A DNA stretch of 64,000 nt from Gonapodya prolifera JEL478 (lineage: Eukaryota > Monoblepharomycota > Monoblepharidomycetes > Monoblepharidales > Gonapodyaceae), in assembly GCA_001574975.1 (NCBI GenBank), contig KQ965750.1, forward strand, positions 409,025-473,024, read 5' to 3'. The position numbers and the translations under genes are program-made. The notes beneath the pieces were generated by a model. That model saw nothing but the letters and a program-made list of their open reading frames with translations. It was not told the origin of the DNA and made no database searches. Shown here piece by piece: positions 2,398-17,300 of the stretch. Every line of letters starts with the position of its first letter. Within the stretch, counting starts at the first letter, position 1.

Positions 2398-3447
2398 TCA
2401 AAACGCCTTTGGTCGTCCTCCAACCATGCCAAACCGCCTCGGATCCATGGCCATGGCCTTCATGTCGTGCTGCTGCTGCTGCTGTTGTTGCGGCTGCGGG
2501 ATGATCCTCTGGCCCGTCACGACCTCCAATTTCCGGAGGAGGTCTCTGTTCTGCGCCACCTTCTCCAACGCCGGGCGGACTGCGGGGGTGACGCGGGCGC
2601 CGTGACGGAGCAAGATGTCGACGATCTCGAGGTTGGGCGTGAAATCGATGGCCTTGAACGTGGGCTTATCCTTGTTTGCGCCGTGCGTGCCCGGGTCCGA
2701 CATCATGTTGAGGATGCCCGGCATGTTGATCCACAGCTCGCGCGCGGTGCCCTTTGCCTCCAAGCGTGTCTCGCCGTGCGGGTCGCGTGTGACCCCCTCC
2801 CCGATGGCCAGCTCGAGGGCGGACCCGAAATGGTACAGCGTGTCCCACGTCCCCGCGCCCTCGACGACCGTGTTCCAGATGGGCTCGCTCCACACGGCGC
2901 GGCCACGGATGATTTTCCACTCGATGGGGAGATTTGGGTCGGCGCCGTTGTCGAGGAGTAGCTGCACGAGCTGCGGGTTGTTGCGCAGGATCGCCACTGC
3001 CAGAGCGCTCTCCCCGACGGCCTGCACGTTTCGCGGGGCGAACCCCCCGACGGGTTTCTCCTTGGGCCCGCCGCTGCCGAAGAAGGACGTGGTCCATTTG
3101 GACCCTTCGTGCACGATACAGCCCAAGATGAATCGCTTGCGGGTGTTGGGATCCGCGCCGGCGGAAATGGCCGCGGCGGCCATGCGGGTGTCGCCTGCCT
3201 CGATGGCCTCGATGAGTTTGGCGCAGGCGTCGTTGTTGCCGAACTTGGACGCCTTTGCCGGGTTTCCCAGAGGTGACGGACCGGCGCCCGACATGTGGGA
3301 CGCGCTGGACCGCGAGGGCAGGCTGGACGTTGACGGGCGGCGGGAGAGAGGCGAGTGGCCAGGCGATGCGGTGCGTGCGTGCGACTGTGGCTGCTGGTCA
3401 CGGTCGAGGGAGACAGTGTGCGGCAAGGGCCGCGAAAGGTGCATCAT
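2398..3447 (-). CDS. Ankyrin-type repeat protein, paralogue 1 (349 aa)
   Basis: Single exon. I chose the ATG at 3447 because it sits in a strong context (GCAGCCATGATGC). The frame stays open upstream to an ATG at 3633, but that stretch is low-complexity and looks like leader. A Ser/Pro-rich head of about 60 residues precedes ankyrin-like helices: LIEAIEAGDTRMAAAAISAG followed by ADPN, then ESALAVAILRNNPQLVQLLL followed by DNGADPNLP, and later LEIVDILLRHGARV. Ankyrin repeats mediate protein binding; the partner is unknown. The tail carries an eight-residue glutamine run (CTG/CAG repeat near 2469-2490). No membrane segment or catalytic motif is visible. A clear paralogue lies at 9602-11002 on the same strand, sharing ADPNLPxxWxIxRGRxVW. 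The two copies flank a repeat array, so a local duplication is likely. The ankyrin call is fairly sure; the role is unknown. Confidence 0.75.
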   Translation of the reverse strand: MMHLSRPLPHTVSLDRDQQPQSHARTASPGHSPLSRRPSTSSLPSRSSASHMSGAGPSPLGNPAKASKFGNNDACAKLIEAIEAGDTRMAAAAISAGADPNTRKRFILGCIVHEGSKWTTSFFGSGGPKEKPVGGFAPRNVQAVGESALAVAILRNNPQLVQLLLDNGADPNLPIEWKIIRGRAVWSEPIWNTVVEGAGTWDTLYHFGSALELAIGEGVTRDPHGETRLEAKGTARELWINMPGILNMMSDPGTHGANKDKPTFKAIDFTPNLEIVDILLRHGARVTPAVRPALEKVAQNRDLLRKLEVVTGQRIIPQPQQQQQQQHDMKAMAMDPRRFGMVGGRPKAF

Positions 3448-4049
3448 GGCTGCGGCGGGCAGCGGGTGCGGCGGGGCAATGCGGGAGCGGGGAGAGGGGG
3501 GAGAGAGCGGGGAACTCAGCGAGTGCGGGGCAAGGGAAAGCGCAGGGAACCGCAAGGTAAAGTTGCCTGACTTTCCAGAAACGGTTTGTTGTGTCAAGCT
3601 TTGCGCCGAGTGCCTCCCGGAGAAATATTCCATCCCCACGAAGCCTCCTGTGCAGCACACGGGGGACAGCGGAATCGCCAGGGACAGCAGCGCACACACG
3701 CCGCACAGAACTTGCGAGGGGGACGCCGAGACAATCGGAGTGGCGCGGCGGGAAGGGCGAGGTGGCGTGCTCGGCAGGTGTGGCTGTCGGAGACGTGGCG
3801 CACTTCAGGTCCCATATCATCGGAGGGAAAGCAAACCCTCAAAGGCCGCGTTCCAAAGCTTATCTGGTAAGCAAACACATCCGCGAATGGACAAAAAGGC
3901 AAATCGTGGGGCTGCGCCGCCTCACTGGCGCATCGTCGGTACCTGCTCCCCGTGATGGACATCTCCGATTGCGCGATCAGCGGGTTGGGGTTTCAATTAC
4001 ATATGCACCAAGGATAAAATGTCGCGTCTGAAGCTAGGCTCAGCGAGAT
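3448..4049. other. Intergenic, nothing recognised
   Basis: Upstream region of the ankyrin-type gene. Long open frames on the plus strand here are antisense shadows or lack ATG starts. No gene supported. Confidence 0.5.
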
Positions 4050-9601: not shown

Positions 9602-11002
9602 TCACCAGTGAACATTTCCGGCTAACATTCCCAAATCTTGCACTCTGGTCGCATGCCGGACCTTTGCCGCGCTCCGTGGGTCGCTTCCCGCCATCCCTCC
9701 AACAGCTCCACCACCGTATTGCCCGGGGGGTCCTGCCCGCGGAACAGTGTTCCCTGCTTCGCGATACTGAGCAGCCGGTGCCTGGCTTGCGGCGGTCGGG
9801 ACACTGGACGTCCTTCGGTGGTCTATCGGGATTGGAGTTCCGGCGTAGGAGAGGGATGGGTGGGACGCCATGTGGGCCGGGGAGAGAGTGGACGAGGACG
9901 ACGAGGGTGAGGCTCCCGACGGAGAGTAGGCGGTGTGGGAGAGAGAGATGGACATGCGAGGCACCGAGGAAGAACTTGAGGTGGACGAGATGGTGCTGTT
10001 GAGCGTACCAACAAGGACTCCACTTCCGTTCGCTGGGCGGAGATCTTGCCCCGCCGAGCGGCGCTCCATGGCGACTTCCATCGCTCGCAGCCTGGACGGG
10101 TCTTCGAGGCACTTCACGACGGCTGCGCGTGCGGCTGCTGACACCTTGGCGCCACCACGGACGAGCTCCTCGACGATTTCGATGTTTGGGACGAAGGGGA
10201 CGCCCATGAAGGTGCGCTCATCGGGGGACGGGTCGGCAAGCAAGGGGGCGGCGCCGCGGTTGGAGCACCAGACTTCAGCCGGGTGGGATGGGTCGGCGTG
10301 CGCGAGGTAGTCGAGGGGGAAGTCTCCGCTGGCGTCTCGTCCGGTTCCAACGCCGAGGGCGAGCTCGAGGTGCGAGTTGAAACGGTAGGCCAAGTCCCAT
10401 TCCCGTTCGGCGATGTTGGCCCACGTTTGACGGGTCCATACTTGCCGACCACGAGCGATGCGCCACGCGGCGGGGAGGTTCGGGTCGGCACCGCCGAGAA
10501 GAAGTTCGTGCACGCACGCGGGGGAATCGTGGAGGATGGCGAGAGCGAGGGCGGATTCGCCTTGTGCGGTGACGGTGAGAGTTTCAGATGCACCGGTTCC
10601 CTTCTCTTGGGCATCCGCAGTCGCGGAGGAGGAGCCCGAGAGAGCAGCTAAAAGCCCAGATTTTCCGAGAGTCGTTTTCGATCCTGCGTAGACGGTGCAG
10701 GTGAGGGTGCAGAGTTTGCGAGCGTTGGGGTCGGCACCGGCAGCGAGGGCTGTTCGCACTGCGTGTGCGTCCTTGGATTCGACAGCGGCGAGAAGTTGAA
10801 GGGAAGGAGGTGGACCACGGGAGGACTTTCTGTGGTTTGATGGGGCGGTCGGGGAAGGAGAAGTGGACCGGGAGCGAGACCTCCCGCGAATGGGAGACGG
10901 TTCCGGAGTAGGTGGGAGGTCACGGGATCTGAACGTATTCGCCGACGGATTTCTGCGGTGCCCCATTTGCGGGAGATACGACGAGTAGTCGAGATTGGAC
11001 AT
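9602..11002 (-). CDS. Ankyrin-type repeat protein, paralogue 2 (466 aa)
   Basis: Single exon. The ATG at 11002 opens MSNLDYSSYLPQMGHRR; the frame extends a few codons upstream but only to a non-ATG codon. A Ser/Arg/Pro-rich head (SRSRSTSPSP) is followed by ankyrin-like segments LQLLAAVESKDAHAVRTAL, AAGADPNARK, ESALALAILHDSPACVHELL and IEIVEELVRGGAKV (roughly residues 75-310). About 150 residues of Ser/Pro/Ala-rich, probably disordered sequence form the tail. It shares distinctive inter-repeat sequence with the protein at 2398-3447 (GADPNLPxxWRIARGRQVW, the YRFNSHLELALG region and the 'GSK' segment after the first ADPN), so the two are paralogues. Function unknown; binding or scaffolding is family-level knowledge. 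The longer disordered tail is the main difference from paralogue 1, which instead has a polyglutamine tract. Confidence 0.75.
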   Translation of the reverse strand: MSNLDYSSYLPQMGHRRNPSANTFRSRDLPPTPEPSPIRGRSRSRSTSPSPTAPSNHRKSSRGPPPSLQLLAAVESKDAHAVRTALAAGADPNARKLCTLTCTVYAGSKTTLGKSGLLAALSGSSSATADAQEKGTGASETLTVTAQGESALALAILHDSPACVHELLLGGADPNLPAAWRIARGRQVWTRQTWANIAEREWDLAYRFNSHLELALGVGTGRDASGDFPLDYLAHADPSHPAEVWCSNRGAAPLLADPSPDERTFMGVPFVPNIEIVEELVRGGAKVSAAARAAVVKCLEDPSRLRAMEVAMERRSAGQDLRPANGSGVLVGTLNSTISSTSSSSSVPRMSISLSHTAYSPSGASPSSSSSTLSPAHMASHPSLSYAGTPIPIDHRRTSSVPTAASQAPAAQYREAGNTVPRAGPPGQYGGGAVGGMAGSDPRSAAKVRHATRVQDLGMLAGNVHW

Positions 11003-11654
11003 GCGCAGGGGTTTGGGTGACAAGGAAAAGTGGATCGACTGGAAAGACTTGTCAATCGGACGAGAGATAACCTGGCAGAGGGAAGAATCAGACGATGCAG
11101 CCGATTTAGCCTTCGAAGCAAGAAGCCTTCCAATCTCAAGTACTCACCGTTCGGGAATGCTCTCTACTCAAGACACGCAATCCGAGTTCGTAGCCTTCCC
11201 TGCTTTCCGCGTCGATTCCGTCTGCAGCCTACGATGCGATTGCAACGAATCTTGGTCGTTTCTCCCAATTTACCTGGGCGGTTTGTTGATTACGCCCTCC
11301 CTCGCCCCTGTGCGCCACATTGGCAAGCTTGCCATCCTCCGATGTTTCGCCAGCCATTCACAGACGCCCGTCACCGTTTCAGAACCAGAAGACAGTCCAT
11401 GCGTTTCATTTTTGCGTCTGCAGTGATCGCGAAATGCGCACGCCTGCTATTCATTCGGTGTTTGTTGTTTTGATTCTTTTCAGCAATCGGGTCCAGACCA
11501 TCACCAACAGCCTACAAGATTGGCAAACTATGAGATAATGCAGTCCGTGTATTTTTAGCGCGGAAGTAATTTTCAAATAGCAGAACCGTTCCCCTAAGAA
11601 TCAATCTGTCGCCATTACATAGTTTATTACCAACCATACTTCTTGCGTTCCTTC
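11003..11654. other. Intergenic, nothing recognised
   Basis: Upstream of ankyrin paralogue 2 and downstream of the Ulp1-like gene. Plus-strand open frames here lack family features, and I do not call them. Confidence 0.5.
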
Positions 11655-14389
11655 TCAAAAATCCACTGATATATGAGAAGAGTCAAGTAACGACGGAGAG
11701 AGCTGATGTGCCTCTCTGACACGTTCCTCTTCTGAAACGCCGAAAAGTTCCCTGCAACATTGAACAAACAAGTAAACCAATTCTGCCGGGTGGATAATTT
11801 GACTCAAATCCTCACCGTTGCTCTCGCATTAGCTCCAGCAGGTTGCCGAGCGCATACACTCCACAATCTATCTTGTTACTCTGCGGGTTCGATGCGAGGG
11901 CACCACATCGCACCCTACGGTAGGGGCTTCTGATGGCAGCGAGGAATGTCGCCGCCGCCGCCTCTGTCCCAGCCGAGACGCCAACGACTTGTCCTTCTGA
12001 GAGGGAATCGAGCACACTGAGAGTCGCCACTCCATGATCGGGCTTCAAGAGAACAAGCTTCCAATAGCCCGCTTCTCCTTCTGACATGGGCTCGATAAAC
12101 ACGGGAAACACGAAACACGCCGTCCTCGCCAAGTCGAAAGTCGGGCGATTCTGAAGCCACGTTGCCAAAAACTCCACACGACCGCTTCTCAAATACCTCC
12201 ATTGCTCGTTGCTGAGGAGGTAGATCTTCAACAGCCGCTTCCAAACGAAGCATTTCCAGCACGGTCTCAATGACAGTCGCGGTAGGGCATCGCCCGTCAT
12301 TGTGGCACTCCGCGATATTAATCTCGTAGCCGTCCGAGCCGCCAAGCGTGGGCGAGTGGATGTGCATGACCGGAGCTCGTTGATAACTCGAGTTTCTTCA
12401 CGTGTCGGATGAGAGCCGTGTGATGTTGACAACCTGAACGGCCGCAAGTAAAATTGCGGCCGAACCGGGCGTCCAAAATTCTCGGGAACAGGATCGTCGT
12501 CGTCGTCGTCCACAACAATGACCTTTTTGGATGAAGTTGCCTTGCTTGCAGTGGCTTTGAGGAGTGAGTCGTCCGGCAAGTGACAATAAAGAATGAACTT
12601 CCACGTCGACCAGTTCCAAGATGGGGCCATCGGGACTCGGGCTTACCTCCAACACCGCCCACGTCGCTCTGCATTTCGTCTGCCAGCTTTGCCTTGGTCG
12701 TCAGTACGCCCATCACCTCAAGAAGGTGCAACGATATATATGTTTTGTCACATTGAGTCAGGGCGGGCTGACGGGTTTCGCTCACCTCGACTCTCAAGGA
12801 ATCCTACAGCATCGTGTTCCACTGCGCGGCTGTTGGCTCGAACCACATGACGTGTCTCCCGAAGCCGACATCGCAGTGCTACCAGACGTCTGCTCCGCTG
12901 GACCGCCAAGTATCGACCCTTGGAAGAATTCAAAAGATGGAAGTGTTGATGAAGAATGTTAGCTTCCACTTCGACCAGCTCCAAGGTGGGGTCATCACGA
13001 CTCAAGCTTACCTCTGTCGCCACCTTCGATCAGCATTCCGTCTGCCATCCCTGCCTGGGAGTCGTCTGCACGAGCGCAACCTCCAAAACGTGCAGTGAAA
13101 TATGATGTTTCACGTAGAGTCAGAACGACCTGGCGGTTTCGCTTACCTTGACTCTCTCGGAGTAGTAATTTCACTACATCGGGATCGACTGTCAGGGGGA
13201 TGTCGATTTTTGATAGCAGGTGCCTGCTCCACTGGGCTGCCAAGTGTGGCCCCTAGAAAATATTCAGAGGTTTGAAACGTTGAAGGAGAATGTCAGCTTA
13301 AAAGTCGACCAGCTCCAAGGTGGAGTCATCGCGCCTCGAGCTTAACTTCGTCACTACCGTCCATATGCACTCTGTCTGCTATCTCCGCACGGTGGTCGTC
13401 AGCGCCAACTTCTCCTAAAGAAAGTTCAATGGAATATGTTCTTTTACGCCCAGGCGCTTTCGCTCACCTTGACTCTCGAGGAGTCCTTTCACTACATTGT
13501 GCTCGGTGGCGGTGGCCGTGCTTAGCTCCTGGTCCGGGGCATGATGTGGTGTGTCGCTAGAAGCCAGTACTGATCCATCGTTACCAAGTTGTTGCTCCCC
13601 ACCAAGTATCGCGCCTTGGAAAACTCAGAAGATCAAATTGTCGATGGAGAATGTTAGCTTTTACATCTGGCCTGTTCCAAGGTGGGGCCATCGCAACTCG
13701 AGCTTACCATCAACATCGCCGTTATACTCCACCTCCATTTCCTCACGAACCTCCGCCCCGGTAATCTTCAGCTCTCGCTTCGCCCGAAGAAACTGCAATG
13801 GAATTCGTTATGTCGTATCGAGCCAGGACGGCCTGACGATTTTCCTCACCTTGAATTTGATCGAGCAGGCCCATAGTAGCATCATTGTGGTCAACTGCAG
13901 GGGCAATGACCACGGCGCTTACTTCTGGAGCTGATCCACTGGTCCCGCGGCTCGAGAGGGTCCATAGTCAACGGCAGGTGTGCGCTTCACTGGAACGTTG
14001 ACTTTCACCCATTGGAATCATTAGAAGCCTGAATGAATTTCACGAGAACCGTGCTCACCTTCGATTTGCGGGCGAGGACGTTGGGGAATCTCGATGTCGA
14101 GGCGCTGTCCACGATCCTTGAGTCGCAGAATATTTTTCACGGATGTCGCGTCAAGACGGAGGAGGGGGCCGACATTCTCAGATGTCTCTAATTCTCCAAC
14201 GTTTTGGTTCTCTGTGGCATCAAAGTTGCTTGCAATGTTGCGATGAGTTTCAAAGTGACTTGTTCACCTGCCATCGGGCCCTGCCCTATAATTCTCCATT
14301 GTGCCTCCACCAGGCAACTGATCCCACAACGAACCCTGCAGTTTGGATAGTGAATTCCCGCCGAAGGAAGGAGGAGGGTCACTCGTCAT
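11655..14389 (-). CDS. Ulp1/C48-type cysteine protease-like protein with mini-exon array
   Basis: The start is ATG 14389 (MTSDPPPSFGGN). Resolved exons: 14268-14389, 14059-14228, then a module array with many mini-exons, then 12434-12554, 12197-12386, 11816-12150 and 11655-11751. Phases of the last four agree exactly. The C-terminal domain resembles SUMO/ULP proteases: the Asp-bearing LSVLDSL strand and the Cys motif QSNKIDCGVYALGNLLELM (nucleophile Cys in DCGVY). The usual His-Trp of the active site reads Tyr-Trp (GYWKLVLL), so activity is doubtful. Before the domain, KKVIVVDDDDDD looks like a SUMO-interacting motif (hydrophobic core plus acidic run). Ulp1-family enzymes process or remove SUMO. 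Several array exons are out of frame relative to each other, so the gene may be partly decayed or heavily spliced. Family call fairly sure; full model unsure. Confidence 0.6.
12600..13850 (-). repeat. Tandem modules, each with two mini-exons and two introns
   Basis: Four copies of a segment, marked by TCGACCAGNTCCAAG-like sequence at 12606, 12971, 13305 and 13666 (spacings 365, 334 and 361 bp). On the minus strand each carries an exon of about 105-150 nt ending in a codon run like 'LLESQ G', an intron starting GTGAGCGAAA/GTAAGCGAAA, a 70-85 nt exon, and an intron starting GTAAGCNCGAG. Copy 3 is fully in frame (13468-13614 and 13414 downward). Copies 1 and 2 have shifted frames, and the second donor of copy 3 is changed to GTTAAG. 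Introns are as conserved as exons, so the unit that duplicated was genomic DNA. It lies inside the Ulp1-like gene. Confidence 0.75.
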
Positions 14390-17300
14390 ATTTAGAGGCA
14401 GCTAAACAGTTGTACACACTTGCAGAGGTTCAAATGATACAACGCGTAGTTCGCATCCTCTCCACTGAACCAAGAAATGGTCAACAAGCACCATCGTTCG
14501 GCTGGAGACGTGTTGCGGATGAGACCGGTTGGCGGATCCAACAGTGCAAAAGCCCATAGCGGAGGAGTGCGATGACGAGGAAAGATAGGTTGTTAGCACA
14601 CTCGAGGCAGACTGGATGATGCTTTCAATACCGACTCCCAAGTGTGTTTGACCTCTGTTGGAAAGCGCTCCGAATAGGCTTTTCTAAATCCTGCGTCCTT
14701 GTCCTGGCACTAAGTAGCACGGGTGTGGCGATTATATCAACGATTTGCGTGTCCGAGCGTTTGGATGATGCGCGTTTGAGTCATTTTGGGTTGGTTGTGA
14801 GGGAGACGCGAAGTGCATTGTACCACCTATACAATGGTTATGGTTACCAAAAGGACGCCAACACCCGCAATCAGTGAATATTTGACCAGATACTCTACAT
14901 TCACTGGGTCTAAACATAACTGTATAATTCCGGGGTCGAAAACCCAAGAACGATTCACAACACATCAGCAGGGGTAGTATCGTTCTCCCAGTTCAATGTA
15001 TTCACTAGTGTACGCAGTCTTTTAATAACTTGACCGTCATTTTAGTTTTTTTACACGTGGTCAGCACCCAAAGAGATAGTAGAACCTGACGTGACACCTC
15101 ACGACCATCCTGCATGTTTTCTGCACCAGCCCATTATGTTATAATACCGCGCTATGAATAGTATCGCTCAAAAACTGTATGCGAAGTAAGAGTGTCTCAG
15201 CTACAACCCCTTTAGCGCGCCAATTTCCGACGGGAACCAAAGGAGGACGTCACCAGGTTGTGACTCAACCTGTCGAAGGTGATGAGCCGGAATGGTCTTT
15301 CACGTTTATAGCGATAAAGCAAAGATTATGCATAGCAACGGAACCATTCTGGGCTCCTACGACGAGAGACGGGCTGAGAAAATATGAAGCGATCCCGGTC
15401 GTTCTCCCCTCTATCATATCATCGCCTCCCTCTCACATCGCACGGAATCCATCAGGATGCTCTAACACCGACACTATATATCTATAAATGATATTTCCTC
15501 AGCTTTGGTGTGTGGAACTTTGGATTTGCGTGAGCGATCGGCATGAGATCCATGACCCATCGGAGAGTCGCGGGCGACGAGCGATTGCACCGAAACTGCG
15601 ATGAAAACCGCATCCGAACACCTCGACCACACTCTTGGTACGCGCACGGGACCAAAATGTCGTCGCCGGATGGACCGATCCCACCACTTCCCTGTTTCGT
15701 AGTCGGCACGCTGGATCGTCCCTTCCTCCTCTCCATCCCCGCTCGATTCCTCCTCGGTAACACCATTTGATGTTGTTCCGGCTCGTTTTTGATGGTCGGA
15801 TGGTGCGGGCGTCGGAACTCCCTTGTCCGAACGGGCGTTGAGGCCGCACCGTTTGGTGACGGCGAACTCCGAGATGAAGTCCACTCTGGCGCTTGACGGA
15901 GACACACGAGATCTGCTCAGCTGCACGTGCTGTGACGTGCAATGGGGCGCTCATCGGACCCACTTGCAACAAATGGCGTATTCACAACTGATGCGATGAA
16001 TTCGTAACCGGGAACGATCTTCCTCTTCGTCGCCTCCCGTCCGCTGCACCTCGACAAGCTTCCTTGCTGTGATAGCACCTCGTTTCGATGCTCCGCTTTC
16101 CTGGGCGTCGGTATTCCTGGACTTATCTCGTGCTGAAAGAACATTCGATTTTTGAGTGCGAACAATGAAGTTCAGGACACATGACACGGGGGCATTGTTC
16201 ACAAGTGCATTGAGCGGAATAAAATTGTTGATTGTATACCGCATGCACTGTTGTGTGCAAAGTGCGAAGGAAGTTGTGTGGAATTCCAGGTTGTTCAATC
16301 TTCAACCGGAAAATCATATTCCTTGAAGCCCGTCATGCAGGTCTCCATCCAGCACACCAGTGTTGCTATCGCTTGGTATTAATCATTTGTAAGCCCGCCC
16401 TGTCGCTTATTATGTTTCTTAGTACTATTTGACCTCACCCGGGTGGTCTCAGGCTGGCCCCTTTTCGGTCTGGAACATTACAGTCAAACCTCTTTTCACA
16501 ACTCAGACCGTAAATATCGTAAGTTCCGCTGCTTGCGGTCTGGCTGCGCACTGAACGCGGCAACGGTCGATGCTACCATTGAAGTTTTTCGACGAGAGGT
16601 AGCAAGTCTCGGAACAATCGAGCACTCGGCTCGACACTGGGAGTAGATGTGAGACGGGGACTACACATAACTGCTCGATTTGCAAGCCCCATAGAAGTTG
16701 CTGGCTCCCAAAGTTGCAGGACACTGCGGCCTTCGTATTACCCGTTTATCTGCCGCCAAAGGGAGAATCGAAAATTGGTCACTGGAAACTCTTGGAGTCG
16801 TGAGGAGCACTCGAGTCTTCAAGCGAGAAGAACAGTCGACTCACGACTGTGGTGTGTTTCCCTACTTGGCAAATGTTCTGCAACAACTGCGCTCACATGA
16901 TGATCTGAGATCGACATCCAAGTTCGACCACAGTTGAACAACCTTTACTTCACTGTGTCGGGAAATAAGAACGATTTCAGGATACATGGCGTTAATATGA
17001 ATACTCAGACAATCGAAAAGCTGCGTATGTACTTCACGGCGATCGTTTACGAATAAATCAGAACAAATGAGTGATGGACACTGAGGGGTAATACACATAC
17101 TTTCAAAGAGTCCGGCCATCGGTTCTGTTGAAAAAGAATATGAACCCGTACAAATCGTAACAAATCATCACAGTCATGTTACTTATTCCAAAAATAAAAC
17201 TGAGTATTGAAAGAGAACGTGTACTAAAAGTCCCGAAACGCTTCAGATGATCAATAGAACTCTTTCTCGCGTTCCACATTGACAAAATCGTGTTGCAAGA

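Follow-up and report, generated by a model that had tools for sequence, protein, structure and literature searches.

The window, that is the whole stretch of DNA analyzed here, corresponds to the last 64 kb of its contig in an assembly of 47.6 Mb. Its minus strand carries a predicted gene in which a tandem array separates an upstream exon from a C48/Ulp1-related C-terminal part, and a decayed relative of this last part lies on the plus strand.

14335..14389, minus strand: predicted first exon with the ATG (gene model)
14059..14211, minus strand: exon preceding the array, left in phase 1 (in all gene models)
12578..14033, minus strand: whole tandem array of four units (self-BLAST E 9e-83 and local alignment to the consensus unit)
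11655..12554, minus strand: C48/Ulp1-related C-terminal part with GYWKLVLL, VLDSL and QSNKIDCGV, and KVIVVDDDDDD upstream (gene model and hhalign)
16560..16940, plus strand: relic related to the C48-like domain, FVLPVYLPPKGESKIGHWKLL ... QSTHDCGVFPYLANVLQQL, with no array (sequence comparison)

The C-terminal part, which contains the probable last intron of the gene (11,815-11,752), shows the motif order F-V-F-P-V ... YWKLVLL ... VLDSL ... QSNKIDCGV. The initial annotation had called the gene Ulp1-like. This relation is weakly supported, by the order of the motifs and by hhalign comparison with the C48 proteins of the same genome (probability 63%, E 7e-5, versus 0.1% and E 0.58 for the reversed control). 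On the other hand, Pfam Peptidase_C48 was not matched in the C-terminal part at E 0.1 or 10 and, while the Asp, Gln and Cys positions of the catalytic set are present, the His is replaced by Tyr (GYWKLVLL). The gene was therefore filed as C48-related and not as a C48 protease, and its C48-like domain is probably devoid of protease activity. An AlphaFold single-sequence model of this part reached a pLDDT of 40, too low to be used, a PDB sequence search returned one chance match only, and a literature search on Ulp1 in basidiomycetes or Agaricomycetes gave no match. Upstream of the C48-like domain, KVIVVDDDDDD (12400-12540, minus strand) resembles a textbook SUMO-interacting motif (SIM) and is a candidate for one. 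The presence of a SIM-like motif in every unit of the array was rejected, as 0 units match and only the downstream VIVVD and the upstream LLRLD do.

The decayed relative is in divergent orientation, ~2.2 kb from the predicted start of the gene. It has kept the catalytic His (GHWKLL) and the DCG, its middle is missing, it contains internal stops, and the array is absent upstream of it. Downstream of the gene are two ankyrin-repeat ORFs (9602-11143 and 2398-3804, minus strand). Two TCP-1 subunit genes, L023 (C184) and L024 (C39), share the same exon layout and are 93% identical; they represent either a recent gene duplication or haplotypes that the assembly left uncollapsed. A search for KDZ transposase gave no match, but the control genomes likewise gave none, so that its absence is unproven.

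Extent and copy number of the tandem array

Self-alignment of the region revealed three off-diagonals, displaced by one, by two and by three times a period of ~335-365 bp. The best self-BLAST pair joined 12578-13440 to 12941-13809 (64% over 922 columns, E 9e-83), and a direct-repeat family search recovered spacings of 365/334/362 bp. TRF did not detect the array locus, a failure that the high divergence of the copies probably explains. When the consensus unit was aligned to the flanks, homology ended sharply at ~14,033 (start of unit 4) and ~12,578 (end of unit 1), both ends falling inside predicted flanking introns. The array thus spans 14,033-12,578 on the minus strand and consists of exactly four head-to-tail units of 395, 362, 334 and 365 bp, from unit 4 to unit 1.

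13639..14033, minus strand: unit 4, the first in gene order and the most diverged (alignment)
13277..13638, minus strand: unit 3 (alignment)
12943..13276, minus strand: unit 2 (alignment)
12578..12942, minus strand: unit 1, most downstream (alignment, 73% identity to unit 2)

Four stacked units of 330-365 bp had initially been placed at 12600-13850, with self-alignment proposed as a check. The periodicity found in that alignment bore out the four units, while their extent was corrected to 14,033-12,578, with unit lengths of 334-395 bp. Pairwise identity between aligned units was 59-73%. Units 1, 2 and 3 resemble one another more than any of them resembles unit 4, which is 59-63% identical to the others; for the duplication order, the quartet bootstrap was 67 to 33. 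A fifth unit was rejected, since no significant match to the consensus unit was obtained upstream or downstream of the array. A sequence-model search of the window with filters off returned the four units and nothing else, and no unit was found elsewhere in the 47.6-Mb assembly by DNA search or by protein query of the exons. In agreement with what had been suggested at the outset, it is well supported that the duplicated stretch is genomic DNA spanning exons and introns, rather than a protein domain: introns match equally, and the breakpoints lie in flanking introns.

Exon-intron anatomy and coding signal

Read on the minus strand, each unit contains, in this order, exon X, intron A, exon Y and intron B. 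In the consensus unit exon X is 144 nt and exon Y 39-69 nt long, both being phase 1-1, so that gain or loss of a unit leaves the frame unshifted. The exon boundaries listed below are predicted, not observed.

13850..13894, minus strand: unit 4 exon X, 45 nt, phase 1-1, CAG acceptor, GTGAGG donor, open (predicted)
13708..13777, minus strand: unit 4 exon Y, with an internal +1 frameshift (homologous to exon Y elsewhere)
13468..13614, minus strand: unit 3 exon X, long form, 147 nt, phase 1-1, open (predicted; coding score high for its length)
13347..13414, minus strand: unit 3 exon Y, in frame, with GTTAAG as displaced donor at 13,346 (predicted)
13147..13188, minus strand: unit 2 exon X, 42 nt, phase 1-1, CAG acceptor (predicted)
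13012..13080, minus strand: unit 2 exon Y, 69 nt, phase 1-1 (predicted; an alternative CAG acceptor gives 13,065-13,012)
12786..12821, minus strand: unit 1 exon X, 36 nt, phase 1-1 (predicted)
12647..12679, minus strand: unit 1 exon Y, short form of 33 nt, in frame through a CAG acceptor lying further downstream (predicted)

A donor GT is present at 8/8 sites. Exon X ends in AAG or GAG followed by GTGAG or GTAAG, and exon Y ends before GTAAGC or, in unit 3, before GTTAAGC. Acceptor positions differ between copies, and among the candidates that lie at homologous positions several are poor, being GAG or AAG; in unit 3, the CAG acceptor of exon X at the short-form position is lost. Intron B contains CTAAC or CTGAC in units 2-4, which unit 1 has lost. 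It had been reported that only copy 3 keeps the frame on both exons, the others being frame-shifted or mutated at a donor. Copy 3 is indeed in frame on both exons, its second donor being the GTTAAG. However, copy 2 is also in frame (42 + 69 nt), and so is copy 1 by means of the later CAG, its long form of exon Y (12,716-12,647) being frame-shifted. A frame shift was confirmed for exon Y of copy 4 alone, the sole exon in which no nearby acceptor of the right phase mends the +1 shift. The earlier statement is thus overly strict and hinges on where the exons are drawn. Coding read-through of intron A was considered and rejected: stops interrupt it in units 1 and 3, units 2 and 4 being open, and a hand count between the latter two found no third-position excess.

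With the upstream ATG as start and the C-terminal stop as end, gene models were built by dynamic programming, combining codon scores with donor, acceptor and branch-point weights. The introns derived from the window were too few for training. Among the 10 best-supported introns, which come from conserved TCP-1 genes of the assembly, most have a donor of the GT[AG]NG type together with a YAG acceptor; they measure 55-93 nt, except for one of 130, and would suit a filamentous fungus, perhaps a basidiomycete. On the gene-model scale, which is relative only because splice weights were hand-set, the training set consisted of four ORFs and the shuffle test counts one ancestral unit four times, the best model took exons from all four units and scored 25.4, compared with 1.5 when the array was treated as one long intron, 1.6 when it was reversed and 5.6 ± 3.4 when it was replaced by dinucleotide shuffles (0/160 reaching 25.4). 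A complete open path to the C-terminus runs through all four units of this model. The exon-like content of the array is therefore above chance, and these comparisons indicate that the units are, or were, exons on the minus strand. Four consensus copies scored 46.4 with a perfectly regular model (exon X of 144 nt and exon Y of 39 nt per unit, all phase 1-1), from which the ancestral unit was very probably a coding exon pair.

Constraint and decay of the units

As had been noticed at first reading, introns are conserved as well as exons, with 53/103 invariant columns versus 40/103 (p 0.09), and the 5' half of intron B is better conserved than exon Y (p 0.024). Between the intact units 2 and 3, NG86 estimates were 0.36 for dN and 0.42 for dS. 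With introns as conserved as exons and dN/dS close to 1, constraint is weak, and at the amino-acid level it is weak or absent. Arrays evolved neutrally from a consensus ancestor at about the observed divergence reached the observed gene-model score in only 1/100, 2/80 and 4/80 simulations under three settings. Indels in multiples of three accounted for 5/7 in exons and 0/6 in introns (one-sided p about 0.016, from alignment-dependent counts made by eye). A linker whose frame is kept and whose sequence is free would fit both the weak constraint and the above-neutral retention; the same data also fit a partial decay confined to certain copies, chiefly unit 4. More generally, the locus allows the divergence of exons and introns of the same age to be compared side by side.

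The 5' half of intron B lies at the following positions in the four units.

13640-13707, minus strand: intron B 5' half, unit 4
13277-13346, minus strand: intron B 5' half, unit 3
12943-13011, minus strand: intron B 5' half, unit 2
12578-12646, minus strand: intron B 5' half, unit 1

No other part of the unit is as well conserved as this one (72-82%), which carries CGATGRCCCCACCTTGGARCTGGTCGA. Its GTGATGA/GCGATGA resembles a snoRNA C box. Rfam returned chance matches only, so that this segment fits no known RNA family.

Origin of the array and comparison with known systems

We favor, with moderate confidence, the view that a symmetric exon pair was tandemly duplicated in the linker of a C48/Ulp1-related gene, whose protease is probably dead, and that the array is partly decayed. 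A genomic segment of ~360 bp, containing two small exons and ending in introns, would have been duplicated in tandem to four copies in one gene, repeated unequal crossing-over being the most likely mechanism. Each added unit would have lengthened the protein by ~61-71 low-complexity linker residues with the frame unbroken, the linker consensus per unit being GAILGGPVEQTPGNNAVLASDTPHAPNQEPDIAPAVDHDVVKLLLESQ plus EMADGMQIDGGDG or a longer form. This linker would sit before the C48/Ulp1-related domain, from which catalysis has probably been lost. The copies would since have drifted under weak constraint: some splice sites moved, a frame shift arose in exon Y of copy 4, and the exon forms supplied today probably vary from copy to copy.

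The initial annotation had proposed either a decaying exon array or a cassette for combinatorial splicing. In its extreme form the former would make the gene a pseudogene, its units being former exons that now drift neutrally, and we regard this as possible but rather doubtful. The dN/dS of about 1, the equal conservation of introns, the frame-shifted exon Y of unit 4, the His-to-Tyr change in the C48 motif and the plainly decayed relative at 16.6-16.9 kb are all consistent with it. It accounts poorly for the complete open path through four units to the C-terminus, for a score above that of nearly all neutral simulations and for exon indels that are mostly multiples of three; what decay there is falls short of that predicted by neutral simulation.

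Much less probable is that units are skipped or included variably, giving isoforms with linkers of different length, so that a symmetric four-unit cassette of exon pairs would tune the linker before a catalytically dead SUMO-protease-like domain. Phase 1-1 exons would allow many combinations, and splice donors are kept in all units, but any surviving exon duplication is expected to be symmetric and the symmetric phases, the sole positive evidence, are no special sign of a cassette. Moreover, the copies are not intact and interchangeable: acceptors differ between them and do not form a uniform cassette, unit 4 has lost the frame in exon Y, and no sign of diversified yet intact alternatives was seen. 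We consider it equally improbable that the array is a non-coding tandem repeat within one long intron, with exon-like features arising by chance. The supposed exons are not better conserved, as such a repeat would have it, but the one-intron, shuffled and reversed scores argue against it, as does the position of the repeat ends in predicted introns.

Among known systems, Dscam-type arrays consist of head-to-tail exon copies in one gene, between which a mutually exclusive choice is made. The present array has head-to-tail exon copies within one gene as well, but it differs by its few copies, by being made of exon pairs, some of them off frame, and by showing no sign of such a choice. With the C48 (Ulp1/SENP) SUMO proteases, the host gene shares F-x-PV ... 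W-K-L-V ... V-L-D-S-L ... Q-S-x(3)-D-C-G-V and the upstream SIM-like stretch; it departs from them by the Tyr in place of the catalytic His and by the lack of a Pfam match.

In schistosome micro-exon genes, ~80% of the coding sequence lies in short symmetric exons of 6-36 bp, and one family of these genes shows an internal repeat of its exon-length pattern (PMC5825161). Small symmetric exons and an internally repeated exon pattern are common to both, but here they concern only part of the gene and the unit exons are mostly longer (33-147 nt); with an upstream exon of 153 nt and a C-terminal exon of ~335 nt in the gene models, most of the predicted coding sequence is not in exons of 6-36 bp.

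The closest parallel is tandem exon duplication, for which human and Drosophila sets have been reviewed (PMC9741552). In both cases adjacent homologous exons occur in one gene in the same orientation, copied as genomic DNA, with frame symmetry and insertion-compatible phases (here in units 2 and 3 and in the consensus, for exons that are predicted). The array differs in that an exon pair, rather than a single exon, is present four times and forms a low-complexity linker, and it is poorly conserved, in contrast to human tandem exon duplications, in which structural and functional residues are kept. No described case of fungal or basidiomycete exon duplication was found in open-access full text, of which coverage was partial. 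Taken together, these comparisons place the array among tandem exon duplications, a known kind in an unusual host. A four-fold exon-pair duplication with both breakpoints in introns would provide a useful example of linker growth by whole genomic units, in the setting of an intron-rich and compact genome.
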